Part shown: positions 2,646 through 61,074 of the stretch, piece by piece
Layout: each line of letters starts with the position of its first letter
Position numbering within the stretch: the first letter of the stretch is position 1
Assembly (NCBI GenBank): GCA_028383305.1
Contig: JAOEVD010000001.1
Span: 62,001 to 126,000 of the forward strand
Length of the DNA: 64,000 bases
Origin: Candidatus Puniceispirillum sp.
GTDB taxonomy: Bacteria > Pseudomonadota > Alphaproteobacteria > Puniceispirillales > Puniceispirillaceae
Direction: 5' to 3'
Program-made: the position numbers and the translations under genes
Notes under the pieces: model-generated
Seen by the model: the letters and a program-made list of their open reading frames with translations, nothing else
The model's database searches: none
Told to the model about the DNA's origin: nothing

Positions 2646-3107
2646 TCAGCCTTTTCCCATCAGGGATGTCTTGACCGCCTGACTGGCAGCCGAAAAATCC
2701 ATCTGGCCAGCGTAATTGCTTTTCAAAAAGCCCATGACCTGCCCCATGTCCTTGACCGATGCCGCACTCGTTTGTTCAATGGCTGCGGCAATTGCCGCGC
2801 TCATTTCGTTATCACTTAGTTGGGCTGGCAAAAACCGTTTGATGATGGCAATCTCGGCTTCTTCAGCGGCGGCCAGTTCGGGGCGCTCTCCATCATTGTA
2901 CATTTTTGCTGATTCGGTGCGTTGCTTTATCATCGTCTGTAACAGGCCAAGGATATCATCATCGCTGATGCCATCAGGATTGCCATTGCCTCTTGCCGCG
3001 ATGTCACGATCTTTCAGGGCAGCCATGATAAGCCGCATCGTGCCTAGGGCCGCCTGATCCTTATCCTTTAATGCCTGCTTCATTGCTGCTGCAATATTTT
3101 CGCGCAT
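2646..3107 (-). CDS. yqeY: GatB/YqeY domain protein
   Basis: A 153 aa stand-alone YqeY protein, the family related to the tail domain of GatB, the tRNA-dependent amidotransferase subunit. Its exact role is not settled; tRNA or amidotransferase association is usually proposed. The whole protein matches the family in length and in motifs such as the start RENIAAAMKQALKDKD, the QRTESAKMY segment and the C-terminal DMGQVMGFLK. It is divergent from carA, 190 bp away, and upstream of dnaG-rpoD on the same strand, a common arrangement in Alphaproteobacteria. It may be cotranscribed with dnaG, though a candidate dnaG promoter lies between them. Confidence 0.9.
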   Translation of the reverse strand: MRENIAAAMKQALKDKDQAALGTMRLIMAALKDRDIAARGNGNPDGISDDDILGLLQTMIKQRTESAKMYNDGERPELAAAEEAEIAIIKRFLPAQLSDNEMSAAIAAAIEQTSAASVKDMGQVMGFLKSNYAGQMDFSAASQAVKTSLMGKG

Positions 3108-3297
3108 GAGAATGTAATCCTTTATGAAACCAATCGAGGTGTCGCCCCAACCAAACGACGCGGTTTTACGCGACTATAGCAAATGCCGCAAGTCCTCCTG
3201 CTTTGGCTTGACCAATGGCGTCCGCTCGGGTAAGACAACAGCCGTTTGGCGAACGTTGATTTGCTAACGGTTTTCTTATAACAGGATATGGGATCAA

Positions 3298-11163: not shown

Positions 11164-12366
11164 TCACGACAGGCTGGCAGTTACTTTGGCAATTCTTTGC
11201 ATCGCATCGGCCAAAACATCATCCGCCGCAGCATAAGAAATTCTGAAATAAGGTGACAGACCAAAGGCAACCCCCGGCACCACCGCCAATTCACCCGCCT
11301 CAAGAAGATAGCTGACAAAATCGCTATCGCTTTCGATGATTTTACCATCAGGCCGCTTTTTCCCGATCAATTTGGCAATCGAGGGATAGACATAAAAAGC
11401 CCCATCGGGAAGCGGACAATCAATCCCGTCAATTTTGTTCAGCGCTTCACAAACAAGCTGGCGACGACGGGCAAAGGCAGCGCGGTTTTCAGCCATGAAA
11501 TCCAACGGTCCATCAAGTGCGGCGATCGCCGCATATTGCGCCATTGAATTCGGGCTTGATGTTGATTGCGATTGCACCTTTGCCATTGCCTTGATCAAGG
11601 ACACCGGCCCACTGCCATAGCCAATGCGCCAGCCAGTCATGCAATAGGATTTCGACACACCATTGACGGTTAGAATACGGTCTTGCAGATCGGGTGCAAT
11701 CGTTGCCATGGTCGTAAATTTGAAATCGTCATAAACCAGATGTTCATAGATATCGTCGCTGATCAAATGCAATTGCGGGTGGCGGCGCATGACCGCGGCA
11801 AACGCCATCAAATCATCCTCATCATAGCCAACCCCGCCTGGGTTTGACGGGCTGTTCAGGATAAGCCATTTGCTATTTAGCGTTATGGCCGCTTCCAGAT
11901 CTTCGGCGCTAACCTTCATGGGATTGGCACCGCTTCCCCTTACAAAGACCGGTTTTGCCTCGCAAATTTCGACAATGCCGGCAAAACTAACCCAGTAAGG
12001 TGTTGGGATAATCACTTCATCGCTTGGGTTCAGACTAGCCATTAGCGCGTTAAACAAAACCTGCTTGCCGCCGGTGCTAACCGTAATCATATCGGCCGTG
12101 CAGCTAACATTGTTTTCGCGCGTAAATTTTCGGCAGATCGCTTGCTTCAATTCGGGGATACCGTCAACTTGCGTATATTTTGTTTTGCCTGCTTTCATCG
12201 CCGCAATCGCAGCATCCTTGATATGCTGCGGCGTATCAAAATCAGGTTCACCAGCAGCAAGCCCAATCACCTTGCGGCCTGCGCCTTTCATATTCAATGC
12301 CATGTCGGTAATCGACACCGTTGGTGATGGCGCGATGCGGTTTAGCCTGTCCGAAATTAGACCCAT
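11164..12366 (-). CDS. Pyridoxal-phosphate aspartate aminotransferase (class I)
   Basis: Transfers the amino group between aspartate and 2-oxoglutarate; enzymes of this subgroup often also accept prephenate or other substrates. The 400 aa protein shows AAGEPDFDTPQHIKDAAI, TKYTQVDGIPELKQAI, the NSPSNPGGVG motif and the PLP lysine in VNGVSKSYCMTGWRIGYGSGP, followed by the C-terminal arginine segment YFRISYA. The start is placed at the ATG (12366) because AAAGGAGA stands about 10 nt upstream; the open frame extends 32 codons further without support. It is divergent from uvrB, 111 bp away. Confidence 0.92.
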   Translation of the reverse strand: MGLISDRLNRIAPSPTVSITDMALNMKGAGRKVIGLAAGEPDFDTPQHIKDAAIAAMKAGKTKYTQVDGIPELKQAICRKFTRENNVSCTADMITVSTGGKQVLFNALMASLNPSDEVIIPTPYWVSFAGIVEICEAKPVFVRGSGANPMKVSAEDLEAAITLNSKWLILNSPSNPGGVGYDEDDLMAFAAVMRRHPQLHLISDDIYEHLVYDDFKFTTMATIAPDLQDRILTVNGVSKSYCMTGWRIGYGSGPVSLIKAMAKVQSQSTSSPNSMAQYAAIAALDGPLDFMAENRAAFARRRQLVCEALNKIDGIDCPLPDGAFYVYPSIAKLIGKKRPDGKIIESDSDFVSYLLEAGELAVVPGVAFGLSPYFRISYAAADDVLADAMQRIAKVTASLS

Positions 12367-45905: not shown

Positions 45906-47015
45906 CTAAAGAAAAGGAAGCAGCACTATTCGGGCTGACCGCGGGCCATCATCCATATGGATTGTTACTGTTTGGCCCTTGTCGATCAGGGCGGTTGACA
46001 CCATACCAACACCGATGTTTTCACCAACGCGGGGTGAATAAACACAAGCGCTGACATAGCCAGCATTTTCCCTATCAAAGCTGATTAAAAGCCGGTCTTC
46101 ATTTGTTATCACAAGGGCGGGGCCATCAATGATGAACCCCATAAACCGGCGGCTGATACCCGCCTTCTTCATGGCGATCAGCGCATCCTTGCCAATAAAA
46201 TCATGCGGCTGGTCGAGCGCGATGAATTTATCCATGCCAAGTTCAAATGGGTTGGTTCTGGAGTCAGTATCAGCACCATAGGAAATCAGGCCGCTCTCAA
46301 TCCGTTCGATGTAATTTGGCGTTCCGGGCCCGATATCATACGGCTTGCCAGCTTCGGCAACACGCACCCACAAATCATCGCCGCGGCTAGAATCACGAAG
46401 ATACAGCTCATAGCCGCCTTGCTTTGACCAGCCAGAGCGCGCCACAACCAGCGGAATGCCATCAAGTTCAGTGACGCGAAATCCAAAATATTTCAGTTCA
46501 CGAACCCAATCACCAAAAAGGTCAGACACAACATCAACTGCCTTTGGCCCCTGAATGGCAAGCGGCGAGACATCTGGCTCATAAACGTCGACATCCAGCC
46601 TTAACGTGCCGGCAACCGCGCTTGCCCATAATTGAATATCGCTATCGGCAATCGACAGCCAGATTTCATCTTCAGCCACTTGCAGCAATACCGGATCATT
46701 GATGATTGCGCCGCTGTGATTGCAGATTGGTACATATTTTCCCTGCCCAATGACCAAACCATCAAGATTGCGCGGGGTCAACAACCGCGCCAATGCCAGC
46801 GCGTCCGGCCCTTTCAGCGCAACCTGCCGCTCAACCGCGACATCCCACATGGCAACACCATTGATCAGCCGATCATACTCAGCCGCCGGATCGCCATAGC
46901 TTGTTGGCATATACATATGATTATAGACACTAGCCGCGGCCAGACCGGCCTTACAGCTCGACTGAAAAAACGGGCTTTTGCGAACCCGCGCACCAATGGA
47001 TAATTGTACCGCCAT
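45906..47015 (-). CDS. DmdA-like (dimethylsulfoniopropionate demethylase / GcvT family) protein
   Basis: A 369 aa tetrahydrofolate-dependent aminomethyltransferase-family protein whose length and sequence pattern match DmdA, the enzyme that moves a methyl group from DMSP to tetrahydrofolate in marine bacteria. Characteristic stretches are VYNHMYMPTSY, MWDVAVERQVALKGPDAL, LLTPRNLDGLVIGQGKYVPIC, ISIADSD-like LSIADSDIQLWA, EPDVSPLAIQGPKA and VVARSGWSKQGGYELYL. AGGGG lies eight bases before the ATG. It follows the threonine-aldolase gene by 120 bp on the same strand. Other GcvT-like demethylases are the alternative; it is not the glycine-cleavage T protein, since gcvH/gcvP are absent. Confidence 0.75.
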   Translation of the reverse strand: MAVQLSIGARVRKSPFFQSSCKAGLAAASVYNHMYMPTSYGDPAAEYDRLINGVAMWDVAVERQVALKGPDALALARLLTPRNLDGLVIGQGKYVPICNHSGAIINDPVLLQVAEDEIWLSIADSDIQLWASAVAGTLRLDVDVYEPDVSPLAIQGPKAVDVVSDLFGDWVRELKYFGFRVTELDGIPLVVARSGWSKQGGYELYLRDSSRGDDLWVRVAEAGKPYDIGPGTPNYIERIESGLISYGADTDSRTNPFELGMDKFIALDQPHDFIGKDALIAMKKAGISRRFMGFIIDGPALVITNEDRLLISFDRENAGYVSACVYSPRVGENIGVGMVSTALIDKGQTVTIHMDDGPRSARIVLLPFL

Positions 47016-47135: not shown

Positions 47136-48185
47136 CTATTGAAAAAAATCGGCGAGTTCAGCAGCAAATTGATCAGCTGCTTTCACATCAATATCAAGAT
47201 GGGTAACAAGCCGGATCACGCGATCACCACCGCCAAGCAAAATACCGCGCGATGCGAGATGCACCCGAAGCGGGTCTGCCGCCCCTTCGGGAACCGTTAT
47301 AAACAACATATTTGTTTCAACCAGATCAGCATCAACTGCGATTGGTCCAATTTTATTCAATTGATCGGCAAGTCGCCGCGCCATGGCATGATCATCGGCA
47401 AGCCGGTCAATATGGTGATCAAGCGCATAAATGCCTGCCGCCGCCAGAATGCCAACCTGGCGCATGCCACCACCAACCAATTTGCGCATCCGGTGTGCCC
47501 GCGCAATAAAATCATGCGCACCAACAAGAACCGATCCTGCCGGTGTGCCAAGTCCCTTTGACAGGCATAAGGACACACTATCAACTGAATCAACAATCTG
47601 TTTGGCAGGCACGCCAAGCTTGACCACGGCATTCATCAGCCTTGCCCCATCAAGATGCACGCCAAGCCCGCTATCTTTGCCAGCTTTGGCAAGGCCGTCA
47701 ATAACCCCAACATCATGTACATGACCAGATATGGTATTTTCAAGACATAGCAAACGGCTAATCGGACAATGCGGATCATCTGGCTTAACGGCCTCGGTGA
47801 TTTGTGATGGTGTCATCAAACCGCGATGGTCGGTTCCAATCGCCTCCATCATCACGCCGCCAAGAACCGAAACCCCACCAGCCTCATAACGATGAACATG
47901 ATAGCAATCACCGACCAGCAATTCATCACCGCGCTGGCAATGCGATAAAAGCGCAACAAGATTAGACTGGGTACCACTCGCAACAAACAGGCCAGCCTGT
48001 TTGCCAAGAAGCGTGGCAACCTTGTCTTGAAGCTCATTAACCGTGGGGTCATCCCCATAAACATCATCACCCACTTCGGCTGTTGCCATGGCTTGGCGCA
48101 TTGCCGCTGTTGGTTTTGTTACAGTGTCGCTTCGAAGATCTATAAATGCCGGTTTGTTATGCAAGGCCACGTCCTGATAATTCAT
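47136..48185 (-). CDS. ltaE: Low-specificity L-threonine aldolase-type PLP enzyme
   Basis: Cleaves beta-hydroxy-alpha-amino acids to glycine and an aldehyde. The 349 aa fold-type I enzyme shows DLRSDTVTKPTAAMRQAM, EVGDDVYGDDPTVNELQ, LFVASGTQSNLVAL, CLENTISGHVHDV, HLDGARLMNA and the PLP lysine K210 in SLCLSKGLGTPAGSVL. Its start overlaps the stop of the ferredoxin-reductase-type gene (ATGA), so it belongs to the same operon as the heterocycle genes. It could simply supply glycine or act on a pathway aldehyde; the natural substrate is unknown. Confidence 0.88.
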   Translation of the reverse strand: MNYQDVALHNKPAFIDLRSDTVTKPTAAMRQAMATAEVGDDVYGDDPTVNELQDKVATLLGKQAGLFVASGTQSNLVALLSHCQRGDELLVGDCYHVHRYEAGGVSVLGGVMMEAIGTDHRGLMTPSQITEAVKPDDPHCPISRLLCLENTISGHVHDVGVIDGLAKAGKDSGLGVHLDGARLMNAVVKLGVPAKQIVDSVDSVSLCLSKGLGTPAGSVLVGAHDFIARAHRMRKLVGGGMRQVGILAAAGIYALDHHIDRLADDHAMARRLADQLNKIGPIAVDADLVETNMLFITVPEGAADPLRVHLASRGILLGGGDRVIRLVTHLDIDVKAADQFAAELADFFQ

Positions 48186-49417
48186 TGTTCATTCCCCGCT
48201 GCAACAAAACCTTTGAGATCAAAATCGCCATTGCCAATATCGTCAGGATCAGGCGACAGTCCAAGATCAAGACATTTTTTGCCAAGCATATAGCCCGCCG
48301 GATCACGAACAGCCTCAACCGCGGCCAATTTTCCATTGTCGCCATAGCTCCAGACGGAAAAACCACCTTCGCGTTTTCCAGATCGCAGTTGATGCCGAAG
48401 ATCGGGCGATGCCAGCGGCACAATACCTGCCGATTGCAGACGAACATCAAATTGTTCCGACCAGAACCACGGCGCTGCTATTGCCGGTTGGGCAAGGCCG
48501 CAAATGGCAGCCGCAGCGCGCGCAGCGGTCATTTGCGCATTATTAACCGATTCGATTCGCAAAGCCGCACCATCAATCAGCGCCACATCACCAATCGCAA
48601 AAATATCCTGAACCGAGCTTTGCATCATTGCGTCAACTAGAATGCCATTACCCGCCTCAATCCCGGCCGACGCTGCCAGATCCAGATCAGGCAGAACGCC
48701 GATCCCGACAAGCAGTAATTCAGCCGCAATCTGGCGACCATCATCAAGCTGCACGCCATTAAAGGCACCGTCCTTTTGCAAAATGTCCTGACAATTTGCG
48801 CCGATATGCAGCCCAACATCATGGCTTTGATGCAATTCGGCAAAAAACGCCGAAATCTGCGGGCTTGCCACCCGCGCCAACAGCCGGTCAGCCATTTCGA
48901 TCACATCAACGCGAAGCCCAAGCTTGGTCAAACTTGCAGCAACCTCCAGCCCGATATAACCGCCGCCAATCACCACCGCATGCTGGCGACCCGAAACCGC
49001 CTTGCGCAAAGCATATGCATCATCAGGATGGCGAAGCACAAACACTCCATCAAGACCCGCCGCCGCCACAAGCTGTCGCGGAACCGCCCCAGTGGCAAGC
49101 ACCAGCTTGTCATAGTTATGCTGACTGTCATCATCGAGATTTAGCTGTTTTTGCAGCGGATCAATCAACACCGCCTCCCGCCCATCAAGCAATTCAATAT
49201 CATGCGCGGCAAACCAGTCGGGTCGCCGTAAAAGAAATTTGGCATCATCTTTACCATCAGCCTGCAAAAAAGCCTTTGATAATGGCGGGCGTTCAAGCGG
49301 CGCATCGACCAGCCGGTCAATGATGCAAATTCGGCCAGCATAACCATTTGCCCGCAATTGTTCAGCGCAGGAAACCCCTGCATGACTGGCACCAACGATA
49401 ATGATTTGATCTGCCAT
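48182..49417 (-). CDS. Ferredoxin reductase-type FAD/NAD(P)H oxidoreductase
   Basis: A 411 aa flavoprotein of the putidaredoxin/rubredoxin-reductase family that transfers electrons between NAD(P)H and a small iron-sulfur protein. FAD site IIIVGASHAGVSCAEQLRANG, LERPPLSKAFL, second nucleotide site AVVIGGGYIGLEVAASLTKLGLRVDVIE, and SVQDIFAIGDVAL are present, with the C-terminal reductase domain (APWFWSEQFDVRLQSAG). It is translationally coupled to the threonine aldolase gene and 26 bp after the HAD gene. In this operon it could exchange electrons with the ferredoxin used by the ring reductase or the Mo hydroxylase; no ferredoxin gene is in the window. Confidence 0.87.
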   Translation of the reverse strand: MADQIIIVGASHAGVSCAEQLRANGYAGRICIIDRLVDAPLERPPLSKAFLQADGKDDAKFLLRRPDWFAAHDIELLDGREAVLIDPLQKQLNLDDDSQHNYDKLVLATGAVPRQLVAAAGLDGVFVLRHPDDAYALRKAVSGRQHAVVIGGGYIGLEVAASLTKLGLRVDVIEMADRLLARVASPQISAFFAELHQSHDVGLHIGANCQDILQKDGAFNGVQLDDGRQIAAELLLVGIGVLPDLDLAASAGIEAGNGILVDAMMQSSVQDIFAIGDVALIDGAALRIESVNNAQMTAARAAAAICGLAQPAIAAPWFWSEQFDVRLQSAGIVPLASPDLRHQLRSGKREGGFSVWSYGDNGKLAAVEAVRDPAGYMLGKKCLDLGLSPDPDDIGNGDFDLKGFVAAGNEQ

Positions 49418-49443: not shown

Positions 49444-50187
49444 TTACCGCAAAGACCGGCGCGCCATTAAGGCAGGTAATTGATCAATCCTGCCAATAAC
49501 ATTCTCGTGATGAATATCTTGATGTGGGCGGTTGTCAACGCTGTCGGCAATACAGATGAAATCACCTGCCTTTGCCGCAATGGCCGCACCATAATCAGCC
49601 ATCGTATCCCCAACCATAATGCTTTCCGCTGGTGTCACACCGGCAATCTGGCAACAGTGCAAAAACCCATGCGGCTCGGGTTTTGACCCAAAGCCACTAT
49701 CCGCACCAACCACCGTACAAAATAAATCCAGAACGCCAATATCCTGCATGTTTCTTTTGGCGCTGCTCTCACTGTCATTGGTCAAAATCGCAAGCTGATA
49801 GCCATCCTTGTGAAGCTGGCGAAGCGGCGCTTCAACCTCGCCTTTTGGCACGGTCTGATTGCGCCCATGCCGATCGACCAATATTTGCACATCCTGCTTA
49901 TAACGATTATCCTGATCAAGCTTGATCATATGGCTTGGCAGCATTTTCTGCCAACAGCTGCGAATATCGGCAAAGGAACCGGCGGCAAATATACCGCGTG
50001 AGTCAATTTGGCCAGCAGCTTCATCAACGCCAATAGCCGCCAGCAATTCAACCCCGCCAATATCGCCATCCCAATCATCGGGAATACGGCTTGCGGTATA
50101 ATGCGCCACAGCCCGTGCCACCGGCAGCCATGTCGCCTCCAGATCAAGGATCACTCCATCTTTATCAAACACGATTAAATCAGTCAT
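49444..50187 (-). CDS. HAD family hydrolase (phosphoglycolate phosphatase-like)
   Basis: A 247 aa haloacid-dehalogenase hydrolase with motif I LIVFDKDGVILDLEATW (two aspartates), motif II LAILTNDSE, a lysine in GSKPEPHGF and motif IV IMVGDTMADYGAA. The start is taken at the ATG at 50187, just before motif I; the frame is open 48 codons upstream without support. It lies 155 bp after the UPF0280 gene and 26 bp before the reductase gene. Substrate unknown; phosphatase activity is expected from the family. Confidence 0.87.
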   Translation of the reverse strand: MTDLIVFDKDGVILDLEATWLPVARAVAHYTASRIPDDWDGDIGGVELLAAIGVDEAAGQIDSRGIFAAGSFADIRSCWQKMLPSHMIKLDQDNRYKQDVQILVDRHGRNQTVPKGEVEAPLRQLHKDGYQLAILTNDSESSAKRNMQDIGVLDLFCTVVGADSGFGSKPEPHGFLHCCQIAGVTPAESIMVGDTMADYGAAIAAKAGDFICIADSVDNRPHQDIHHENVIGRIDQLPALMARRSLR

Positions 50188-50342
50188 CAATATCCACAGC
50201 CCATAAACGGAACTCAATAAATGCGGCCCATAAAATGGGCGGAAAATCTCTTGCCGGCTAGAGTGAACGATTTTGACGCCATGACCAAGCCGCTTTTGCA
50301 AAATACCGCCAGCCCTGCACGCGCCAGTCATTCAATTGCCAA

Positions 50343-51317
50343 TCATTCATTGGCAATGATAAAGCTTCGCCCGCCAAGCCGCGCATAGGCGGTCATGATC
50401 TGCCCGTCATCACACATTTGGCGAGCAAGAGTTGCACCGGCGGCAAGCGCATGATCAATTTCATCGGCGCTTAAAGGGCCAACATCAACCGTGACAAGCC
50501 GGTCTTTTAAATCACTATCTGGCACAAGGCTGGCCGCAGGCTGGCGTATAATTGCCGGTGACGATATGGTAATCGCATTGGCAATCAAACTGGCGGCAAC
50601 ATCGGCAGCCGCCGCGTTTTGCGCCAGCACGGTAACCGAATCTGCAATCCCAAGTGACAGGCTTCGCCCCCGCCAACCGCTTGTCGCAATGCCGCCAATG
50701 CGATCATGGTCATGCAGCCTGATCTGGCCATGAAGGGGCATATGCCCACCACCACCTCCCAAAGCGGCCATCGCAAAATCGCTAAGATGCGTGTCGCGGT
50801 CATCGGCAATGCCGATATCAAAAAAGGCATCCTTGCCGAGATAGAGCGCAATATCACCGCCATTATTGACCGAAGCCCGATCGAGCTGATTGCCCATTGC
50901 CAGCAAAATTTCATCAGCAGCGCTTCCCGCAACGGCAATCATTGGGGTGATGAAATCAGCCTTGTCATAGCGCGGCAAATGCGGGCTGATCGCCGCCACC
51001 ATGCGTTTGGCAACGGGTCCTTTCAGGCGGTTGATGGTGTTGGAGTCGGCGGGCAATCGCAGCATCGTCAATTCATCGACCAACCGATCAAGCAGGCCGC
51101 AAAACGCATCGGCGGCGCAGGCATAGGCGGCAGCGACTTCGGCTTTGTCGCCTTCAGCGGTGATGATTAAATCAATCGGCCCATGTTGAAGATGTAATCG
51201 GTGATCAAGCCAATTTGCCATTGCCCCGCTTGGCATTCGAACCGGTTGCCCTACCACCGCAGGCAGATTCGCCGATAAAGCAGGTGGGCGAGCGGTTGTG
51301 GCGGCTGACGACAGCAT
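50343..51317 (-). CDS. UPF0280 family protein (ApbE superfamily)
   Basis: An uncharacterised member of the superfamily that includes the FMN transferase ApbE. The family core begins near residue 33 (MANWLDHRLHLQHGPIDLIITAEGD), includes the segment MVAAISPHLPRYDKADFITPMIAVAGSAADEIL and a glycine-rich NNGGDIALYL similar to the ApbE nucleotide region, and ends with RLGGRSFIIANE. Up to 32 extra N-terminal residues depend on the start (ATG at 51317, or later ATGs near 51236 and 51221). It starts 3 bp after the ring-reductase stop. Because 6-hydroxynicotinate reductase carries a covalent flavin, a flavin-attachment role is an attractive inference. Confidence 0.85.
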   Translation of the reverse strand: MLSSAATTARPPALSANLPAVVGQPVRMPSGAMANWLDHRLHLQHGPIDLIITAEGDKAEVAAAYACAADAFCGLLDRLVDELTMLRLPADSNTINRLKGPVAKRMVAAISPHLPRYDKADFITPMIAVAGSAADEILLAMGNQLDRASVNNGGDIALYLGKDAFFDIGIADDRDTHLSDFAMAALGGGGGHMPLHGQIRLHDHDRIGGIATSGWRGRSLSLGIADSVTVLAQNAAAADVAASLIANAITISSPAIIRQPAASLVPDSDLKDRLVTVDVGPLSADEIDHALAAGATLARQMCDDGQIMTAYARLGGRSFIIANE

Positions 51318-51320
51318 GGC

Positions 51321-52820
51321 CTATCGCCTTATTGGCCAAGGATTTTGCGGCTGCTGGGAAAATCGCCTTTTGCCAGCAAGATCGTGATCATTTTGTGGCC
51401 CGACCTTGCCAGCCAGGACATCATCAATCGACATGATATGATCAACATGGCCGCCAAGAGCGATATAATCATCTTTACGCATGGTAAATTCGATTGGCGC
51501 AACCAATGCTGGGGTTGGCACATAGCCAAACGCATTTTCGGGAAGGCTTGTCACATCAACCATCAGCGTGATGCCGCCGCCAGGCCAGATAAAGACCGGC
51601 GCCCCGCCGCAGGTTACCCGCGTTAAAGCGTCTTTGACCGAACGTGTTAGCATCACCGGATTTTCGGTTACACCGGCACGAAGCGACCCGCCAGCCCCAC
51701 CCATGAAACTGACCGAGGTCAATGCCGGTTCGCAATTTTCCTCAATCCGTTTGATTGATGGTTGCAAACGCACCGGCATGGCGGTTCCGACCGGCTGTAA
51801 ATCTTGATCAAGTTCGTAATAGGCAAATTGCTCGCCCGTCGTCGAGACCATCAATAAAGACTGTCCGGGCGTGGCGATCTTCGGATCGAATGGCCCAAGA
51901 ATGGCAAGCGGATCGGTTAGATTCGTGCCGCCCCATCCGGTGCCGGGCTCAGCCACCTGAAAATAACGGCCAGGTGTTGACCGGCGACCCAGAATTTTAA
52001 TGCCAGTCGCAGGCCAGCCGATAACTTTTCCTGCCTGATGTTCAGACATCACGCCGGTAATATGGTCATCGACAATGACCACCTCATCGACCAGATTATG
52101 CCATTGTGCGGCAAACATGCCAATTGTTGCCGACCCGCACCCAACCCGCATGCGCGCCTCGACAACGCCATTGATCACTGGCGCTTTACCCGCCTGCAAC
52201 ACAAGGCTTGATCCATCATCAACCTGCAAATCAACCGCGTCACCATTGCAAAGCGCCAATAGGGTGGCACAGGTGACACGGCCTTCTTTTTTACCGCCAC
52301 CGGTTAAATGATGCACGCCGCCCAATGACAGCATCTGTGATCCATATTCACCCGTTGTGACATGGCCAACCGGTTCACCATCAACCCGCACAAGCGCTCG
52401 TTCAGGGCCAATATGCCGGTCAGTGTCGATTTTGACCTTGGCACCGCAATAGCTGAAAATTCCTTCAGACACGACCGTCACCATATCAACATCATCAACA
52501 ATGCTGCTGACAATAAAGGGTGCTGGCTTGTAATCGGGATAGGTTGTGCCCGCCCCAACCGCAGTCACAAACGCATCTTGCGGGGTAATCAGATCACCAT
52601 CCCACGCGTCACTGCTATCAAGAAATGGCACTAATTCACCACCATCATCAACGCGGCGCTGCATCACCATTAATGGGTCAAGCCGGATAAGCTGGCCGCC
52701 CTCATTCGCATAGCGATCACAAGCCCCCGATTTGCCATCGGCGATATAACACATCACTGGACAGGCATCGCAGCGGATTTTCTCTTCAACGCGTTTGTCA
52801 CGACTGGTTTTTGCTGTCAT
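51321..52820 (-). CDS. hnr: 6-hydroxynicotinate reductase-like ring reductase
   Basis: Homologue of Eubacterium barkeri 6-hydroxynicotinate reductase, which uses reduced ferredoxin to reduce 6-hydroxynicotinate to 1,4,5,6-tetrahydro-6-oxonicotinate and contains covalent flavin and Fe-S clusters. The 499 aa form starts at the ATG at 52820 that overlaps the Mo-subunit stop (ATGA); the frame is open further upstream. Near the N-terminus C17, C20, C24 and C34 form a ferredoxin-like Cys set (RCDACPVMC). VGCGSAT (226-232) lies mid-protein. Other stretches: SEGIFSYCGAKVKIDTD, GGGKKEGRVTC and FIWPGGGITLMVDV. Family assignment is firm; the actual ring substrate is not known. Confidence 0.82.
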   Translation of the reverse strand: MTAKTSRDKRVEEKIRCDACPVMCYIADGKSGACDRYANEGGQLIRLDPLMVMQRRVDDGGELVPFLDSSDAWDGDLITPQDAFVTAVGAGTTYPDYKPAPFIVSSIVDDVDMVTVVSEGIFSYCGAKVKIDTDRHIGPERALVRVDGEPVGHVTTGEYGSQMLSLGGVHHLTGGGKKEGRVTCATLLALCNGDAVDLQVDDGSSLVLQAGKAPVINGVVEARMRVGCGSATIGMFAAQWHNLVDEVVIVDDHITGVMSEHQAGKVIGWPATGIKILGRRSTPGRYFQVAEPGTGWGGTNLTDPLAILGPFDPKIATPGQSLLMVSTTGEQFAYYELDQDLQPVGTAMPVRLQPSIKRIEENCEPALTSVSFMGGAGGSLRAGVTENPVMLTRSVKDALTRVTCGGAPVFIWPGGGITLMVDVTSLPENAFGYVPTPALVAPIEFTMRKDDYIALGGHVDHIMSIDDVLAGKVGPQNDHDLAGKRRFSQQPQNPWPIRR

Positions 52821-55576
52821 GACGGCCTGCCTTGGGCAGCCTGCGCTGCCACAACCGCCGCGCAAACTTTATCAGGTGTTGCTGGCAAATCATAAATCGC
52901 GGCACCCGTTGCATGGCGAATGGCGTTCAAAATTGCTGGTGCGGTTGGGATCAAAACATGCTCGCCAAGCCCCTTTGCCCCATAGGGGCCTTCTTCATCG
53001 GCAACTTCAACAATCACATGATCAAATTGCGGCACATCACCAATCGTCGGGATCAAATAATCATGCAGATTTTCAGTGCGGCCGGGTTGATAATCTTCCA
53101 TCAAAGCCATGCCAATGCCCTGCGCAACACCGCCTTCGATCTGACCTTCGACAAGCAAGGGGTTAATCGCCCGCCCGACATCATGCGCTGTTGTGATCTT
53201 ATCAAGCCGCACAAGGCCAAGCGCTGCATCAACCGACAATTCAACCATCTGTGCGCCATAGCCAAACACCGCATAGGGAATGCCTTGCCCCTTTTCATCA
53301 AGCGGGCTGGTTGGTGGATCATAGGTTTCTTCAGCCATAAACACATAGCCATAGTCATTGATCGGCATATCTGCTAATGCAATGCGCAATGTACCGCCAC
53401 CAGCATCAGCCAGCGTCAAGACCGCACCATCAAGCGCGATTTTGGCATTGGCATCAACATTCCCGTGCCGAAGCACCATATCGCGCAAAGCCATGCCCGA
53501 CAGCATTGCCGCCTTGCCCGAAACAAAGGTTTGGCGTGAAGCAGATGTTTTACCGCAATCAGGGGTGAGATCGGTATCACCGCCAAGAATTTGTACATCG
53601 TGAACCGGAACGCCCAACGCATCTGCGGCGATCTGGGTAATCACCGTATTGGCACCTTGGCCAATATCCATGGCGCCCTGATGCAGAACAATTCTGCCAT
53701 CGGCAGTGATGCCCATGCGCATTGTTGACGGGTTTGGCAATGACGTATTGCCGCAGCCATACCAACAGCTGGCAATGCCAACACCCTTGCGCCATGGGTT
53801 GTCATCACGAATTGCGGTCTGGTTAAAACTGGCTGCAGATGCGACAGCGGCATGCCAGCTATCTTCAAGCGCGGCAAAACAATCATCAATGCCAACACCG
53901 CTGTTAAAGACCTGACCGGTTACGGTTGGCACGCCATTTTTCAATGCGTTCAAACGCCGGAAAGCCAATCGGTCTATACCTAGTTTTTCCGCAAGCAAAT
54001 CAAAGGCGCATTCCTGTGCCACCGCTGATTGCGGCACACCAAACCCACGAAACGCGCCTGCTGGCGGTGCATTGGTATGAACTGCAACGCTATTGGCGCG
54101 GTAATCTTTTGTTGCATAGGGGCCGCTAGCATGGATCGGCACACGGTTGGCAACGGTTGGCCCCCAGCTGGCATAAGCGCCAGTGTTAAAAATACCATCA
54201 AACACAAAACCGCTAATCCGACCAGTTTCGTCACAGCCAACAGCAAGCCGGATATCGGAAGGGTGACGCTTGGTCGATGCTCGCATTGATTCGCCACGGC
54301 TATAGCAAATATGCGCTGGACGCCCTAACACCCATGCCGCAAGCGCAACATAGGGCTGAAAAGACACATCCAGCTTTGAGCCAAAGCCGCCGCCACAAGC
54401 CGATGGCACAACCCGAATGGCCTCAAGCTCCATGCCCATAATCTCGGCAAGGCTCTCACGATCCATTTGCGCCGCCTGCGTACAGCCATGAATGACAATC
54501 CGGTTGCCCTCACGGGTGGCATAGCCTGCCTCAGGCTCGATATAGGCATGTTCGATAAAGGGTGTTGTTGTATGAATCTCGACCTTATGCGCCGCCGCCG
54601 CAAGCGCCTGATCGGCGTCACCGGTTTCGACATAGCCACGAACAAGAATATTGCCATCACGATTTGCATGCATCTTGCGTGCGCCATCCGCCATCGCTGA
54701 TGCAGGCGATAGCATCGTTTCATGCGGGGTCCATTTGATTGGAAAATCGGCTTCGTCAAAATGCCTTATCACATCGGCATCACCAACAATCGCTGCCACT
54801 GCATCACCGCGATATAGGGCTGTTGTTTCGGCAAAAACCGGCTGATCGGCAAAGGGCGGAATCACCCCAAAACAATTGCGGCCGGGAATATCGCTGGCAT
54901 CAAGAACTGCCAAAATACCAGGATGGCTTGCCAGAAACTCTGTCTTATCGCCAATTTCAAAACTGCTGTAATGATGCGGGCTGCGGATTACCCTCACCAA
55001 CAGCGCATCTTGCGGCACCGCGTCATCACCATAGATCAGGCTGCCATCGACTTTGGGCTGGCCATCGAGATGCCGGATGGGGCTGCCAACATTCTGCCCT
55101 GCCTGTGGTCGCGGCGATATTTTGGCATCGCCACCAACCGCCAGAACCGCATCAATGATCTTGCTATAGCCGGTACAACGGCACAAAACCCCACCAAGCG
55201 CATCTTCGACATCATGCCGGTTTGGTGCGCGGTTTTCAGCCAATAACGCCGATGCCGCCACCATCATGCCCGGGGTGCAGATACCGCATTGTGCAGCCCC
55301 ATGCGCTAGAAAACTATCTTGTAATTTGGCAATTGTGCCATCAGCATGCAGTCCTTCGATGCTGGTCACTGCGGCACCTTCAACCTGCGCAATTGCTGTC
55401 AGGCAACTGCAAATCGGAGCGCCATCAAGAAGCACGCTACAAGCACCACAATCACCGGCGTTACAGCCAATCTTGGTACCCGGCAAATCCATTTCAGTAC
55501 GCAAAACATCACTCAAGCGGGTGCTGGCGGGAAGCTGGCTGGTGACTGGCTTGCCATTCAAGGTAAAACAGGTCAT
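52817..55576 (-). CDS. Molybdenum hydroxylase, fused [2Fe-2S] and Mo-cofactor subunit (xanthine dehydrogenase family)
   Basis: Hydroxylates a carbon next to a ring nitrogen, or oxidises an aldehyde, with water as oxygen source. This 919 aa chain fuses two normally separate parts. Residues about 1-155 are the iron-sulfur subunit with both clusters (C38, C43, C46, C58; and C97, C100, C132, C134). The rest is the Mo-binding subunit, with GGGFGSKLD, AGAFRGFGVPQ, GAMDIGQGANT and the catalytic glutamate E872 in GAKGLGE. The start at 55576 overlaps the FAD-subunit stop (ATGA), and its stop overlaps the ring-reductase start. Context points to nicotinate-dehydrogenase-type action; the substrate is inferred. 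Confidence 0.88.
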   Translation of the reverse strand: MTCFTLNGKPVTSQLPASTRLSDVLRTEMDLPGTKIGCNAGDCGACSVLLDGAPICSCLTAIAQVEGAAVTSIEGLHADGTIAKLQDSFLAHGAAQCGICTPGMMVAASALLAENRAPNRHDVEDALGGVLCRCTGYSKIIDAVLAVGGDAKISPRPQAGQNVGSPIRHLDGQPKVDGSLIYGDDAVPQDALLVRVIRSPHHYSSFEIGDKTEFLASHPGILAVLDASDIPGRNCFGVIPPFADQPVFAETTALYRGDAVAAIVGDADVIRHFDEADFPIKWTPHETMLSPASAMADGARKMHANRDGNILVRGYVETGDADQALAAAAHKVEIHTTTPFIEHAYIEPEAGYATREGNRIVIHGCTQAAQMDRESLAEIMGMELEAIRVVPSACGGGFGSKLDVSFQPYVALAAWVLGRPAHICYSRGESMRASTKRHPSDIRLAVGCDETGRISGFVFDGIFNTGAYASWGPTVANRVPIHASGPYATKDYRANSVAVHTNAPPAGAFRGFGVPQSAVAQECAFDLLAEKLGIDRLAFRRLNALKNGVPTVTGQVFNSGVGIDDCFAALEDSWHAAVASAASFNQTAIRDDNPWRKGVGIASCWYGCGNTSLPNPSTMRMGITADGRIVLHQGAMDIGQGANTVITQIAADALGVPVHDVQILGGDTDLTPDCGKTSASRQTFVSGKAAMLSGMALRDMVLRHGNVDANAKIALDGAVLTLADAGGGTLRIALADMPINDYGYVFMAEETYDPPTSPLDEKGQGIPYAVFGYGAQMVELSVDAALGLVRLDKITTAHDVGRAINPLLVEGQIEGGVAQGIGMALMEDYQPGRTENLHDYLIPTIGDVPQFDHVIVEVADEEGPYGAKGLGEHVLIPTAPAILNAIRHATGAAIYDLPATPDKVCAAVVAAQAAQGRPS

Positions 55577-56454
55577 GCCGCCACCCCTTTGGCAAAATTC
55601 GATTGCTGTTTGCAAAGCAGGCGGCGCGTAATTTCGCATGATGCCTGCAGCCGATAAGCGGCCGTTGCCCGCACATCATTTATTGGCGAAAGACCGGTGA
55701 AAAGATCTGGCGTAACCCGCGCGCTGGCGGTTGCCAATGCCGTATCACGCAATGCGTCCTCAAGCTGATCCATGCGTTTGGCAACTTCACTACACGCGCC
55801 AATCGACAAGGCCACATCACGAATGATGCCAGCTTCATCAACCGCCAGCCTCAATGCTGCCATGCTGATCGAAATCACCAGATAGGATCGCGCGCCAAGC
55901 TTTAAAAAGCCCGATTGTCCAGCTGTTGACGCTGCCGGTAACCGCAATGCGCTTACCATCTCGCCATCACCAAGCGCGGTTTTGCGATTGCCAAGAATAA
56001 ACGCCGACAACGGCAAATAGCGCAATCCAGACGCACCGGCAATTTCAACCTCGGCATCAAGCGTCAATAAAGGCGGCACGCCATCTGCGGCAGGCGAGGC
56101 GTTGCATAGATTGCCAATAATGGTGGCGCGGTTTTGAATTTGCACCGACCCGACTTCACGCGCGGCGGCCTTTAACCCGTCAAAGGCAGGGGGCACATCA
56201 GCGTCAATCAGCGTTCGCCAGCTGGCAGCCGCGCCAATCCGCCAATAGTCACCGTCAAATGCGACTGTGCTAAGCGCGGCAATTCCCGAAATATCCAAGA
56301 TCGCACCAGTCAATGGCCGATCCTGCAATCGAGGAAACACATCCGTACCACCGGCAAGAATGGTTCTTGGCCCTTTGGCAAGCGTGGCAATGGCTGCCTC
56401 TAGACTGTCGACCCGCACATAATCTGCGGCACCTGCGCCTATTTCGCCTTGCAT
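55573..56454 (-). CDS. FAD subunit of the molybdenum hydroxylase (CoxM/XdhB type)
   Basis: Passes electrons from the Fe-S clusters to the final acceptor. The 293 aa protein has the FAD-binding motifs RTILAGGTDVFPRLQ and VQIQNRATIIGNLCNASPAADGVPPLLTLDAEV and the C-terminal CO-dehydrogenase flavoprotein domain. GGAGAG lies just before the ATG at 56454. Its stop overlaps the start of the fused Fe-S/Mo subunit by 4 nt, so the two form one enzyme. It follows the aldehyde oxidoreductase gene by 52 bp. Confidence 0.9.
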   Translation of the reverse strand: MQGEIGAGAADYVRVDSLEAAIATLAKGPRTILAGGTDVFPRLQDRPLTGAILDISGIAALSTVAFDGDYWRIGAAASWRTLIDADVPPAFDGLKAAAREVGSVQIQNRATIIGNLCNASPAADGVPPLLTLDAEVEIAGASGLRYLPLSAFILGNRKTALGDGEMVSALRLPAASTAGQSGFLKLGARSYLVISISMAALRLAVDEAGIIRDVALSIGACSEVAKRMDQLEDALRDTALATASARVTPDLFTGLSPINDVRATAAYRLQASCEITRRLLCKQQSNFAKGVAA

Positions 56455-56506: not shown

Positions 56507-58234
56507 TTATCGCCAACGGCTTTGCGCTTCCATAAGATTTTGCATTGCGGCATTCACTTCACGGCTGTAAAGGCGTGCCATTTTACCCGTTGGTGGCAAC
56601 GGCTCATCACAGAAAAATGACGGTAATTCATCATCTTCCTGATCAAAACCTGCGGCCTTGTTAAAGGCGGCTTCTAACCGCAATGTTTCAAAGCCAATGC
56701 CGGTGATAAATTCGGGCGTCACATCGGCGTCAAAGGAATCATTAATCGCATCGGCAATCAGTTTGAGATTATCATCTGTGACCGACCGACCAAACACGCA
56801 TAGCCCAAAGGAATCGGCAACCGCGCTGTTAATTTGCATACGCAGGCTTTCGGCAACTAATTCATCAATGGTTTTGTCATCACATTTAAAAGATGGCGCA
56901 TTGCCAACCGTATGATCAGCACCTTGCGCTGTTAGCATCATCGAAATGCCAGTCACTTCGATAATCCGCGGATCATAGGCACTGATGGCCTGCTGTTTGA
57001 TCACCGGCACCCGCGCAACGTCAAACGCCTTGCCAACCCGCGCCGTTCCCGACGCATAAAGACGGCCACGTTCATTGCCGAGGTGGATATCTTCAAGACA
57101 AGATTGCATAAAGCCAACATCACCAAAAGCGCCAATGCCAGCCTCCATCAAAACACCAATGGTGGCACCAAGCTCGATACTATCAACGCCAAGATCATTT
57201 GCCGTTTCATTCAATCTTGCCACATCATCGGGATCATCAAGTCCACAATTTGTGCCAAGCAAACCAATGGTTTCATATTCCAGCGGCGAAACCAGTTCGC
57301 GCCCCGTATCATCAACATAAACATTGCTGCATTTGATCAAACAGCCAGGCATGCAGGCATGTGATGTATCACCGCCGCGCCCGCCATTTAATTCGCGGAT
57401 AAAATCGCCACCCATGCGCAACGGCTCATCATCGGCACTGGTCAATTGGCCGGATGAAAAATTACGAACCGGCAAAGCACCAAGATGGTTGGTAAGATCA
57501 GCCACCATTGCGGTTCCAGTTGTTTTCAGGCTTTGCACCGCAACCGATTCGTCAAGCTTTTTGCCATAATCCTTGATCGCACCCATCAATTTCTTGCGGT
57601 CATTTACCGGCGGCATCCGATCCTTGTCGATGACCATCGCTTTGACCTTTTTGGCACCCATAACCGCGCCAACACCGCCGCGTGCCGCCAAACGTGACGG
57701 CCGGTTATCCGTATCCGAAAAGGCCACGCCAGCCATCAGGCCAAGATATTCACCAACCGGCCCACAAATCGCCAGTGAGGTTTTCTGACCATAGGTTTCA
57801 TGCAGCTTTTTGGCACAATCGAAATTGCCAAGCCCAAGATAAGGCGTCGCATCATCAAAACTGATCTCGCGATCTTTGGTAATGCGAATAATCACCCAAT
57901 CATCACTCGCACCTTGAAGGGTAATGCCCGAAATTAGCAATTGACCCATCGCAAAACCAAATGTGCCGCCGCTATTTGCCTCTTTAATGCCGCCAGTCAG
58001 TGGGCTTTTACAGCCAACGCTTAGCCGGTTTGCATTCGAAAAATTCGTTCCCGCAAAAGGCCCAGCCGAAAAAATCAGCGGGTTTTCCGGCGACATTGGG
58101 TCGATTGTGGCAATGTTCTGGTCAAGCAGCATCCGCGCAATCAGATAACGTCCAGATTCGGCAATTTCGCGACCGGACAAATCACGGCTGGCGGTTGTTT
58201 TGCTGCCAAGGTCGATAGTGATATATTTGCGCAT
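56507..58234 (-). CDS. Aldehyde:ferredoxin oxidoreductase family (tungsten/molybdenum) enzyme
   Basis: Oxidises aldehydes to acids with two electrons passed to ferredoxin. The 575 aa protein has the N-terminal AOR domain (SAGPFAGTNFSNANRLSVGCKSPLTGG, a pterin-binding region), LAARGGVGAVMGAKKVKAMV, Fe-S cysteines C294, C298 and C302 (ACMPGCLIKC) with C479 (DSFGLCVFG), and LEYETIGLLGTNCGL. Start at the ATG at 58234 after AGGATTTATT; the frame is open 11 codons earlier. It lies between the enamidase and Mo-hydroxylase genes. The aldehyde released by the enamidase is the likely substrate by context (inference); Mo versus W cannot be told. Confidence 0.87.
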   Translation of the reverse strand: MRKYITIDLGSKTTASRDLSGREIAESGRYLIARMLLDQNIATIDPMSPENPLIFSAGPFAGTNFSNANRLSVGCKSPLTGGIKEANSGGTFGFAMGQLLISGITLQGASDDWVIIRITKDREISFDDATPYLGLGNFDCAKKLHETYGQKTSLAICGPVGEYLGLMAGVAFSDTDNRPSRLAARGGVGAVMGAKKVKAMVIDKDRMPPVNDRKKLMGAIKDYGKKLDESVAVQSLKTTGTAMVADLTNHLGALPVRNFSSGQLTSADDEPLRMGGDFIRELNGGRGGDTSHACMPGCLIKCSNVYVDDTGRELVSPLEYETIGLLGTNCGLDDPDDVARLNETANDLGVDSIELGATIGVLMEAGIGAFGDVGFMQSCLEDIHLGNERGRLYASGTARVGKAFDVARVPVIKQQAISAYDPRIIEVTGISMMLTAQGADHTVGNAPSFKCDDKTIDELVAESLRMQINSAVADSFGLCVFGRSVTDDNLKLIADAINDSFDADVTPEFITGIGFETLRLEAAFNKAAGFDQEDDELPSFFCDEPLPPTGKMARLYSREVNAAMQNLMEAQSRWR

Positions 58235-58482: not shown

Positions 58483-59652
58483 CTATTCAATGATTTCGGG
58501 CATATGCGTCGCTGGCGGTGTATTTCGGCTGCGGTTGGTGCGCACAATCCCGTCAATAATTGTCATGCCAACCCCGGGCAAATTGCCTTGATGAATGCTT
58601 TCCAGCATATTGCGCCCGGGCGCGTGCTGGGCAGTATCCATCAGCACAAAATCGGCACTGCGGCCAATTTCGATGATGCCGCAATCAAGATCACGCATGC
58701 GCGCTGTATTGCCGGTGGCAAAACAAAAGGCAATTTCCGGGGGAATGTCACCGAGGCTGGACAGCATGGCAATCATCCGCAAAATACCAAGCGGCTGCAC
58801 TCCTGATCCGGCGGGTGAGTCAGTGCCAAGGATCACGCGTTCGGCCTGTTTGATCTCAAAGGCGGTTCGCATCGCCAACAAACCTGCGCGTTCATTGCCA
58901 TTATGCACAATCTCAATGCCGCGATTACAGCTTTCACAAAGGCAGGTTATCTGGTCATCGGGAAGCGCGGTATGGCCGCCATTGATATGACCAATAATAT
59001 CTGCATCAGCTTCAAGAACCACATCCTTGTCAATCAGCCCTGATCCCGGAATTGACGGACCGCCAGTATGGATTGTTGATTGAATGCCATATTTGCGCGC
59101 CCATTTGACCATCTGCGCGGCGGTTTCGCCAGCCTTAACCGAGCCAAGACCAACCTCGCCAAGCAGCTTGACGCCAGCATCGGCAAGCTCTTTAAAATCA
59201 GATTCGACCATGCCATCTTCAATGACCGGAGCACCTGCCAGCATTTTCACGCCTGATGGCCGGAAATTTTCATACCAACGCTGCGAGGCGATCGCCATCG
59301 CCTTTAATCCAACAATATCTTTTGGCCGTCCAGGGGCGTGAACCTCACCTGCCGAAATCATCGTTGTCACTCCGCCATGAAGGCAGGAATCAATCCAGTT
59401 TAGCTGTTGCTGGCGCGGCGTATAATCGCCAATCACCGGATGAACATGGCTGTCAATCAAACCCGGGGTCAATGTCACCCCATGCGCATACACCTTTACC
59501 GTCGCATTATCCAGATCCATATCCTTGGCATAGCCGATATCGGTAATCCGGCCATCGACCGAGACAACGCAATCACCATCAAGGATGGGCGCTTCCAGCT
59601 TACCCGACAGAATCTGGCCAATATTGGTAATCACAAGTTTTTCTGACGCCAT
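58483..59652 (-). CDS. ena: Enamidase-like amidohydrolase
   Basis: Homologue of E. barkeri enamidase, which hydrolyses 1,4,5,6-tetrahydro-6-oxonicotinate to ammonia and 2-formylglutarate. The 389 aa protein carries the metal set expected for the family: H69 and H71 (DSHVHP), E166 (GEVGLG, the bridging carboxylate position), H195 (IHTGGPSIPGSG), H222 (GHINGGHTA) and D278 (LGTDSPAGSG). Strong likeness extends over GDYTPRQQQLNWIDSCLHGG, PGRPKDIVG and the C-terminal RNTPPA. Start at the ATG at 59652 after AAGAGG. It lies downstream of the MarR gene and upstream of AOR. Confidence 0.85.
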   Translation of the reverse strand: MASEKLVITNIGQILSGKLEAPILDGDCVVSVDGRITDIGYAKDMDLDNATVKVYAHGVTLTPGLIDSHVHPVIGDYTPRQQQLNWIDSCLHGGVTTMISAGEVHAPGRPKDIVGLKAMAIASQRWYENFRPSGVKMLAGAPVIEDGMVESDFKELADAGVKLLGEVGLGSVKAGETAAQMVKWARKYGIQSTIHTGGPSIPGSGLIDKDVVLEADADIIGHINGGHTALPDDQITCLCESCNRGIEIVHNGNERAGLLAMRTAFEIKQAERVILGTDSPAGSGVQPLGILRMIAMLSSLGDIPPEIAFCFATGNTARMRDLDCGIIEIGRSADFVLMDTAQHAPGRNMLESIHQGNLPGVGMTIIDGIVRTNRSRNTPPATHMPEIIE

Positions 59653-59772
59653 GATATTATACCTCTTATCTTTTTTGCGATCATTTGCCAGCGCCGGCAG
59701 CATGAAATCATTATCTATTAGTCAGCAATCATGAGGCACCGGTCAAGGTAGATATTACAATCGCCCTTCGGC

Positions 59773-60222
59773 CTATAATTTATCAAGCAAGGTAAGCAGC
59801 CGCGCCAGCTCACGCTTGGTCAAATTTTCGGTTGTTTCCGTGGTGATGACCCGCGCCTGATCGATCGCCGCTTGAACTTTTGTTTGGCCTTCAAGGCTAA
59901 GCGAGATTTGCAACCGCCGCAGATCAGCACCATCTTGACGCGATTGCACCAGACCCCGATCAATCAGGCGCGAAATCACCCCCTTTGTCGTCGCTGCATC
60001 CATCGCAACAAGGCGACCAAGCTGGTTTTGTGACACTTCCCCAACTTCACGAAGCCGCACCAGAATGGAAAATTGCGTTGGCGTCATATCGGGAAGATGC
60101 CGCGAGAAAATCTCAAGATGACGCTGGCTGGCAAGCCGCAGCTTATAGCCGACCTGGTCTTCAAGCTGATAGTCATTAACCGTTTTCGGAACGGCAAAAT
60201 GGCTGGGATCAAAAACATTCAT
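59773..60222 (-). CDS. MarR family regulator of the heterocycle cluster
   Basis: A 149 aa winged-helix repressor. The core is FSILVRLREVGEVSQNQLGRLVAMDAATTKGVISRLIDRGLV with the wing DGADLRRLQISLSLEGQ. It is the first gene of the minus-strand run, 120 bp upstream of the enamidase gene, and divergent from the AA_synth gene. MarR proteins often bind aromatic acids, so a substrate-responsive switch for the pathway is likely. A 17-bp palindrome in the divergent gap is a candidate operator. Confidence 0.9.
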   Translation of the reverse strand: MNVFDPSHFAVPKTVNDYQLEDQVGYKLRLASQRHLEIFSRHLPDMTPTQFSILVRLREVGEVSQNQLGRLVAMDAATTKGVISRLIDRGLVQSRQDGADLRRLQISLSLEGQTKVQAAIDQARVITTETTENLTKRELARLLTLLDKL

Positions 60223-60486: not shown

Positions 60487-61074
60487 ATGGGATTGGCAAA
60501 AATTCGGAAAATCGTCACAATTGTCGAGGATACGCATGAAGAGGCAGGCCAGACCATTTCGCCGCCAACGCGCCGCGCCGCCGCCATTGCGGTGATCGAA
60601 AATCCTTTTGCTGGCACCTATCAAGATGATCTCGAGATGCTTATGTCAATTGGCGAAGAACTTGGCGGCCTTCTTGGTGAGCGCTGCGTTGCCGCGCTTG
60701 GCATCACCCCGCAACAGGCGCAAAGCTATGGCAAGGCCGCACTTGTTGGCGAAAATGGCGAGCTGGAACATGCCGCAGCCATTTTGCATCCCCGCCTTGG
60801 CAAACCGCTGCGTGCCGCTGTTGAAAAAGGGGCTGCCCTTGTCCCTTCAAACAAGAAACGGGGCGGTATGGGTCATCCCATTGATGTGCCGCTTGGTCAT
60901 AAAGACGCTGCCTATGTCCGATCACATTTCGATGGAATGGAAGTCAGCGTCAATGACGCCCCACGCGCCAATGAAATTCTGGTTATCGTTGCGGTTGCTG
61001 ACTCAGGGCGTCCCTTGCCACGTGTTGGTGGCCTGACGCATGATGAGGCTGAAGGCAAAGACGGGCTGCGCTAA
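60487..61074 (+). CDS. AA_synth family protein (PF06684, DUF1185)
   Basis: A 195 aa protein of the amino acid synthesis family, named without firm biochemical proof. Family features are VTIVEDTHEEAGQTISPPTRRAAAIAVIENPFAGTYQDDLE, VGENGELEHAAAILHPRLGKPLR, KKRGGMGHPIDVPLGHKDAAYVRSHFDGMEVSVNDAPRANEILV and the C-terminal GGLTHDEAEGKDGLR. It starts at the ATG at 60487 and is divergent from the MarR gene, suggesting shared control with the heterocycle run. Its role there is unknown. Confidence 0.85.
   Translation: MGLAKIRKIVTIVEDTHEEAGQTISPPTRRAAAIAVIENPFAGTYQDDLEMLMSIGEELGGLLGERCVAALGITPQQAQSYGKAALVGENGELEHAAAILHPRLGKPLRAAVEKGAALVPSNKKRGGMGHPIDVPLGHKDAAYVRSHFDGMEVSVNDAPRANEILVIVAVADSGRPLPRVGGLTHDEAEGKDGLR

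Follow-up and report, generated by a model that had tools for sequence, protein, structure and literature searches.

The UPF0280 gene that follows hnr in this Candidatus Puniceispirillum sp. genome probably encodes some form of maturation factor dedicated to the 6-hydroxynicotinate reductase-type protein Hnr (we put the probability at about 0.75). The specific job that we tentatively assign to it, by sequence comparison and structure modelling, is covalent attachment of flavin, to which we give slightly less than even odds. The observed base for this proposal is that UPF0280 is co-inherited with Hnr, forms its own clade and has the fold of ApbE, an FMN transferase. With the GGD, TSG and Asp/Thr elements that it has kept, UPF0280 would use FAD and a metal ion, and the result would be an Hnr that carries flavin, or a group derived from flavin, covalently at a residue other than T232. 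The reaction would proceed without the histidine of the ApbE HxxDP motif. The first-pass annotation, made from the sequence alone, had suggested that UPF0280 serves Hnr as a flavin attachment factor. Service to Hnr is now strongly supported by identical genome sets, the separate clade (support 100/100) and the ApbE-like fold.

The hnr locus

The window analysed here is a stretch of 64,000 nt (positions 62,001-126,000, forward strand, of contig JAOEVD010000001.1, assembly GCA_028383305.1). Genes of the hnr region are given in Table 1. Between the start codon of UPF0280 (ATG at 51317) and the stop codon of hnr (51321-51323) lies a spacer of 3 bases. The earlier statement that UPF0280 begins 3 bp past hnr thus holds for both genes, their strand and their coordinates. 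The hnr start codon (ATG) is at 52820, and the gene overlaps that of the molybdenum subunit by 4 bases.

Table 1. Features of the hnr region, in coordinates of the window.
Feature	Coordinates	Strand	Remarks
Ferredoxin reductase-like flavoprotein (Pyr_redox_2, Reductase_C)	48182-49417	minus	downstream of UPF0280
HAD hydrolase	49444-50331	minus	directly downstream of UPF0280
UPF0280, Hnr-type branch, 324 aa, ApbE-like fold	50343-51317	minus	no Pfam match at E 0.001
hnr, 6-hydroxynicotinate reductase-type protein, 499 aa	51321-52820	minus	no Pfam match at E 0.001
MRVGCGSAT codons, Hnr residues 224-232	52125-52151	minus	coordinates derived by hand from gene start
Molybdenum hydroxylase, xanthine dehydrogenase family, N-terminus with fused 2Fe-2S, 940 aa	52817-55639	minus
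FAD subunit, molybdenum hydroxylase	55573-56454	minus
Aldehyde:ferredoxin oxidoreductase family protein (AFOR_N, AFOR_C)	56507-58234	minus	start uncertain, TTG at 58267 also possible
Enamidase orthologue (amidohydrolase), 45% identity to E. barkeri enamidase	58483-59703	minus
MarR-family regulator	59773-60222	minus
AA_synth (PF06684) protein	60487-61074	plus

By analogy with the pathway that E. barkeri is said to use, and because of the family and enamidase matches in the window, the genes appear to be the set expected for a nicotinate-like ring breakdown (hydroxylate, reduce, open). The ferredoxin reductase-like flavoprotein is possibly part of an electron donor chain for Hnr. The AA_synth family is present in 18 of the 20 Hnr genomes examined.

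Identity and features of Hnr

Relatives of Hnr occur in 26 plasmid records at 58-73% identity, and 17 of these are annotated as 6-hydroxynicotinate reductase. In all four plasmid regions inspected, UPF0280 lies directly 3' of hnr (in one it is named hypothetical protein). The window protein shares 44% identity with E. barkeri Hnr in an alignment of 36 sequences, and its pathway context, with molybdenum hydroxylase and enamidase both present in the operon, is in place. The original naming of the gene as hnr is thus backed by the plasmid annotations, the identity to E. barkeri Hnr and the nearby enamidase orthologue.

Cys17, Cys20, Cys24 and Cys34 are kept in every sequence that covers these positions, and Cys228 in 71/71. 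The GCGSA segment is near-invariant across the alignment and could well contribute to the active site or form a cluster loop. Among the 69 non-divergent sequences, the invariant residues able in principle to carry a flavin are T115, S123, T133, T156, S161, S230, S281, T327, T328, S379, Y94, Y124, Y159, H253 and H261, as well as C228. The N-terminal region is similar to the N-terminal part of a radical SAM family (TIGR04337 matches in 18/36, best E 0.0016). PF08669 (GCV_T_C) gives weak matches in 34/36 sequences (E up to 10; best 0.0002), the score of the window protein being under the Pfam cut-off. The Hnr structure model (pLDDT 66, built from 11 sequences) matched nothing in the PDB at Z of at least 5; the best match, at Z 4.6, was the GcvT C-terminal barrel (residues 125-212).

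Hnr of E. barkeri reportedly carries covalent flavin (a 2006 study). We know of no such report for any proteobacterial Hnr, and this weakens the case for flavin attachment.

Hnr and UPF0280 are found in the same genomes

We scanned genomes of the window's class for Hnr (289 genomes) and for UPF0280 (278 genomes, being the first sample without its last eleven). Hnr was found in 44/289 and UPF0280 in 40/278; over the 278 common genomes the two sets are the same, 40 and 40, from listings compared by hand. The pair lies on one contig in 39 of the 40, with gaps under about 160 bases, and is split over two contigs in the other (G231).

In the phylum of E. barkeri, 11/299 genomes encode Hnr. UPF0280 is present in 110/299, as 12 high-scoring genes (207-341 bits) and 102 low-scoring ones (29-98 bits), and the high-scoring form occurs in exactly the 11 Hnr genomes. 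Eleven of its 12 genes are at most 1.5 kb from hnr, and the twelfth is within 5 kb. The deltaproteobacterial phylum gave Hnr in 13/59 genomes (leaving out one weak 26-bit match, in G342); these 13 are also the genomes with high-scoring UPF0280, and the gaps between the two genes range from -15 to 332 bases. UPF0280 of any type is present in 42/59. Hypergeometric probabilities for this co-occurrence are 3e-49 (class), 3e-20 (E. barkeri phylum) and 2e-13 (deltaproteobacterial phylum), values that are overstated because the genomes are not independent. With identical sets of 40/40, 11/11 and 13/13, the neighbourhood count strongly supports the link between UPF0280 and Hnr.

The E. barkeri locus was reached by scanning genomes with the E. 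barkeri enamidase (the PDB 2vun sequence). Hnr is encoded at 10 of the 11 loci obtained and UPF0280 adjoins it at nine of these ten; at the tenth (L039) the contig stops inside or just past hnr. In E. barkeri VPI 5359 (locus L035), hnr is at 1830-3329 and UPF0280 overlaps its end. Two divergent second copies of Hnr (L092 and L173) showed no Hnr-type UPF0280 within the 1.5 kb flanks fetched, which counts against a maturation factor.

UPF0280 has an ApbE-like fold and part of the ApbE active site

The window UPF0280 scores 314.2 bits against NCBIfam NF003322 (PRK04334; cut-off 290), so the family assignment made at first pass is secure. The closest fold to its structure model (pLDDT 81) is DVU1097 (PDB 2o34; Z 19.4, rmsd 3.0, 210 residues aligned, 24% identity). 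DVU1097 comes from a different organism, Desulfovibrio vulgaris, and is presumably a DUF39-type (homocysteine) member of the family. Nineteen ApbE/Ftp entries follow at Z 13.4-14.8, and the next group, the uricase T-fold, is at 7.6. Comparison of the UPF0280 profile with one of five ApbE proteins gave E 4e-7, with alignment of the VN-GGD, ATSG and Asp-Thr elements.

The ApbE segment HHxxDPxTG, which holds the catalytic His, has no UPF0280 counterpart in the profile alignment. Matches to the HxxDP pattern in UPF0280 (3/64 Hnr-type, 1/45 core-type) fall elsewhere in the sequence. In Vibrio ApbE this His is the proposed general base, and the H257G mutant retains some activity, according to the accessible text of PMC12052999. 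S213, D239 and GGD are each present in 64/64 Hnr-type UPF0280 and in 43-45 of 45 core-type sequences; in our own mapping, S213 and D239 correspond to the Ser and Asp of the ApbE active-site triad, Ser241 and Asp285 in Vibrio ApbE. With HHxxDPxTG gone and the other elements aligned, UPF0280 appears to retain the half-site that should hold the adenylate and metal, the base having been lost or replaced. In the ApbE rows of the profile alignment, the Asp of HHxxDPxTG is sometimes Asn.

The protein is UPF0280 with an ApbE fold and is not classed as ApbE. The canonical ApbE model PF02424 does not match the window UPF0280; with the E limit at 1 it does find 20 of 34 alignment members (best E 7e-7), and E. 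barkeri UPF0280 exceeds the cut-off (30.8 bits) only when its neighbours are included in the frame.

Covalent flavin attachment is favoured by the genomes that UPF0280 shares with Hnr, by its separate clade and by the fold, profile match and conserved residues described above, and also because some Hnr genomes lack canonical ApbE and E. barkeri Hnr is said to carry the flavin. It is weakened by the missing catalytic His segment and by the absence of the ApbE target motif from the 71 Hnr.

A sister branch linked to DUF39 and the case for sulfur chemistry

UPF0280 and COG2122, which we take to be one family, are tied by the fold match to D. vulgaris 2o34 and by a UPF0280 branch that adjoins DUF39 (PF01837, HcyBio). 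Among the 299 genomes, 98/98 with DUF39 hold a low-scoring UPF0280. Of these low-scoring (core-type) genes, 97/102 have DUF39 no more than 1.5 kb away, and none has Hnr at 5 kb or less. In a tree, the 64 Hnr-type and 45 DUF39-type sequences separate at 100/100; the branch labels were taken from the scores, so that the tree is a check and not an independent discovery.

UPF0280 had been described at first pass as uncharacterised. This stands for its chemistry, which is not known, and does not stand for its genetics: the portions of PMC5764234 available report a homocysteine-synthesis phenotype, in which methionine rescues COG2122 mutants of D. vulgaris, whose fitness follows that of DUF39 (r 0.98). 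The same portions suggest a persulfide role for COG2122 and state that its homology to ApbE stops short of the flavin-binding region (PMC5764234).

We considered whether UPF0280 might instead serve Hnr by handling sulfur, or as an Fe-S/persulfide factor, with the flavin self-attached or added by canonical ApbE. The published phenotype and the proximity to DUF39 speak for this, as does position 211, where 44/45 DUF39-type sequences have Cys, leaving room for sulfur chemistry in that branch. E. barkeri UPF0280 has VCTSG at the position of A211, and Hnr itself has a conserved Cys set that includes the universal Cys228. However, position 211 is Ala in 53/64 Hnr-type sequences, not one Cys reaches 95% conservation in those 64, and both the fold and the residues kept are typical of an enzyme that binds FAD/AMP. 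We regard a sulfur factor as somewhat unlikely, at perhaps one chance in a few. The homocysteine function and proposed persulfide role of the sister branch, together with its Cys at the A211 position, do weaken flavin attachment.

We also asked about the clients. Two collinear stretches of Hnr and DUF39 look alike by eye, and hhalign gave E 0.29 (0.093 and 0.034 with deeper alignments). These scores were equalled by 24/150 and 4/150 column-shuffled controls, so that a remote relationship of Hnr to DUF39, which would have linked the two clients by common ancestry, did not pass its controls.

Partner subunit or pathway enzyme

Strict co-occurrence and overlapping or abutting genes suit a complex equally well, and UPF0280 could be a subunit that partners Hnr in structure or in catalysis, such as a flavin or substrate carrier. 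Because operon linkage fits such a partner as well as it fits a modifying enzyme, it detracts from the latter. However, E. barkeri Hnr was reportedly purified as a stand-alone enzyme, and elsewhere UPF0280 accompanies DUF39, a client without demonstrable similarity to Hnr. We consider a partner subunit unlikely.

Residence in a catabolic operon with enamidase and molybdenum hydroxylase might instead indicate that UPF0280 catalyses a step of a nicotinate-type pathway, its link with Hnr being purely metabolic. This is improbable, since all nine steps of the E. barkeri pathway are said to be assigned to other genes and the sister branch of UPF0280 acts in homocysteine synthesis beside DUF39.

The proposed attachment site and canonical ApbE

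The first-pass annotation had offered VGCGSAT, at Hnr residues 226-232, as possibly an altered flavinylation site, with T232 as the residue to mutate, or equally a cluster or substrate loop. The position of the segment is confirmed; its likeness to the target is at chance level. VGCGSAT agrees with the pattern used at first pass at 3/6 defined positions, eight stretches of Hnr reach this score, and a stretch with a 3/6 match was present in 1000/1000 shuffles of Hnr. According to the available text of PMC12052999, the residue that ApbE modifies is the final one of D-x-x-[S/T]-G-A-[S/T], and replacing the acceptor Thr by Ala abolishes flavinylation. VGCGSAT matches this published motif at 2/5 positions, and the motif occurs in 0/71 Hnr. 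Position 232 is T in 48, S in 12, A in 9, C in 1 and I in 1 of 71 rows; with the divergent L092 and L173 left out (69 rows), it is T in 48, S in 12 and A in 9. Each of the nine proteins with Ala is accompanied at its locus by an Hnr-type UPF0280. Given 9/69 with Ala, and the effect of losing the acceptor Thr on ApbE flavinylation, T232 is unsupported and is very likely wrong as the attachment site.

DGKSGAC (Hnr residues 28-34) agrees with the published motif at 4/5 positions. The form [S/T]GAC is present in 46 of the 66 Hnr that cover the region (two divergent copies left out), and G32-A33-C34 in 68/68. We rejected it as a flavin site, as Cys34 belongs to the C-x2-C-x3-C-x9-C set and the region resembles radical SAM proteins, making a cluster ligand likelier.

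We looked for PF02424 in 24 genomes, a hand-picked part of the Hnr genomes found, and it was absent from 10, including two (G197 and G203) listed as 100% complete and in one contig. The window's own genome, which is 84% complete, gave no PF02424 match. Thus, if all Hnr are flavinylated, canonical ApbE is not a general Hnr factor. E. barkeri encodes one canonical ApbE, which could flavinylate Hnr there and so weakens the reading of UPF0280 as flavin transferase. That canonical ApbE places FMN on T232 itself, as this ApbE and the Thr of E. barkeri Hnr might suggest, is highly improbable given the Ala-bearing proteins, the absence of the motif and the ten genomes without PF02424.

Wider significance

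It is possible, and in our view doubtful, that covalent flavin transferases include UPF0280/COG2122 as a second class, in which one branch serves Hnr and another DUF39. In that case DUF39, which forms homocysteine in methanogens and sulfate reducers, would be a covalent flavoprotein, and the role of COG2122 in sulfide assimilation would be flavinylation, not persulfide chemistry. The clean split between the branches predicts that COG2122 acts on DUF39 in the way that UPF0280 acts on Hnr. The family is common in anaerobes (110/299 and 42/59 genomes), and it is one with a known phenotype and chemistry that is not. Hnr is a purifiable client with a reported covalent flavin, making UPF0280 chemistry directly testable. 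In the literature searched, a limited collection, we found neither UPF0280 by name nor "6-hydroxynicotinate reductase" together with "flavin", and the accessible part of a 2025 ApbE review (PMC12052999) does not mention UPF0280, COG2122 or 6-hydroxynicotinate.

Comparison with known systems

UPF0280 shares with the ApbE/Ftp FMN transferases the fold and the VN-GGD, ATSG and Asp/Thr elements. Unlike them, it is without the HxxDPxTG segment, and its client Hnr is without the ApbE target motif. It is also without the lipoprotein-type N-terminal Cys (judged by eye), as are cytosolic ApbEs. The COG2122/DUF39-linked proteins belong to the same family and conserve GGD, Ser213 and Asp239, but form a separate clade, adjoin DUF39 as client and have another C-terminal part. 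E. barkeri Hnr has an N-terminal two-cluster ferredoxin domain, whereas the window Hnr has no such domain; the Cys motif and GCGSAT are found in both proteins. The E. barkeri cluster has the same partners as that of the window, namely molybdenum hydroxylase, enamidase, AA_synth and UPF0280.

Genes that accompany Hnr

A gene for an AA_synth protein (PF06684) is a further companion of the Hnr cluster. It is present in 18 of the 20 Hnr genomes checked, was also noted at four other loci (L031-L034) and, among the Hnr loci compared, often lies directly after UPF0280. Neither the aldehyde:ferredoxin oxidoreductase-family (AFOR) gene nor, at the corresponding place, the HAD hydrolase of the window was found in the annotation of the four plasmid Hnr regions examined. 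Elsewhere in the window, a GcvT-family protein scored 391.8 bits against the DMSP demethylase model NF009133 (cut-off 410).

Locations of genes discussed in the text
Gene	Location	Strand	Context
GcvT-family protein	window 45906-47015	-	
HAD hydrolase	window 49444-50331	-	directly after UPF0280
AFOR family	window 56507-58234	-	between enamidase gene and molybdenum hydroxylase genes
AA_synth (PF06684)	window 60487-61074	+	
AA_synth (PF06684)	Eubacterium barkeri VPI 5359 (L035) 11191-11772		

Two genomes that encode a normal Hnr also carry a second, divergent copy (L092, G470:C88; L173, G324:C240). In both copies the GCGSAT loop is changed, and Hnr-type UPF0280 is absent from the 1.5 kb flanks examined. 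These proteins possibly act on other substrates.

Similarity of Hnr to known enzymes

Residues 125-212 of the window Hnr weakly resemble the C-terminal barrel of GcvT, both by profile (34 of 36 Hnr members, best E 0.0002) and by fold (Z 4.6). Residues 11-43, which comprise a C-x2-C-P-x2-C start with GAC-x-RY, are similar to radical SAM enzymes of the AmmeMemoRadiSam family at their N-terminus, and TIGR04337 was matched by 18 of the 36 Hnr proteins (best E 0.0016).
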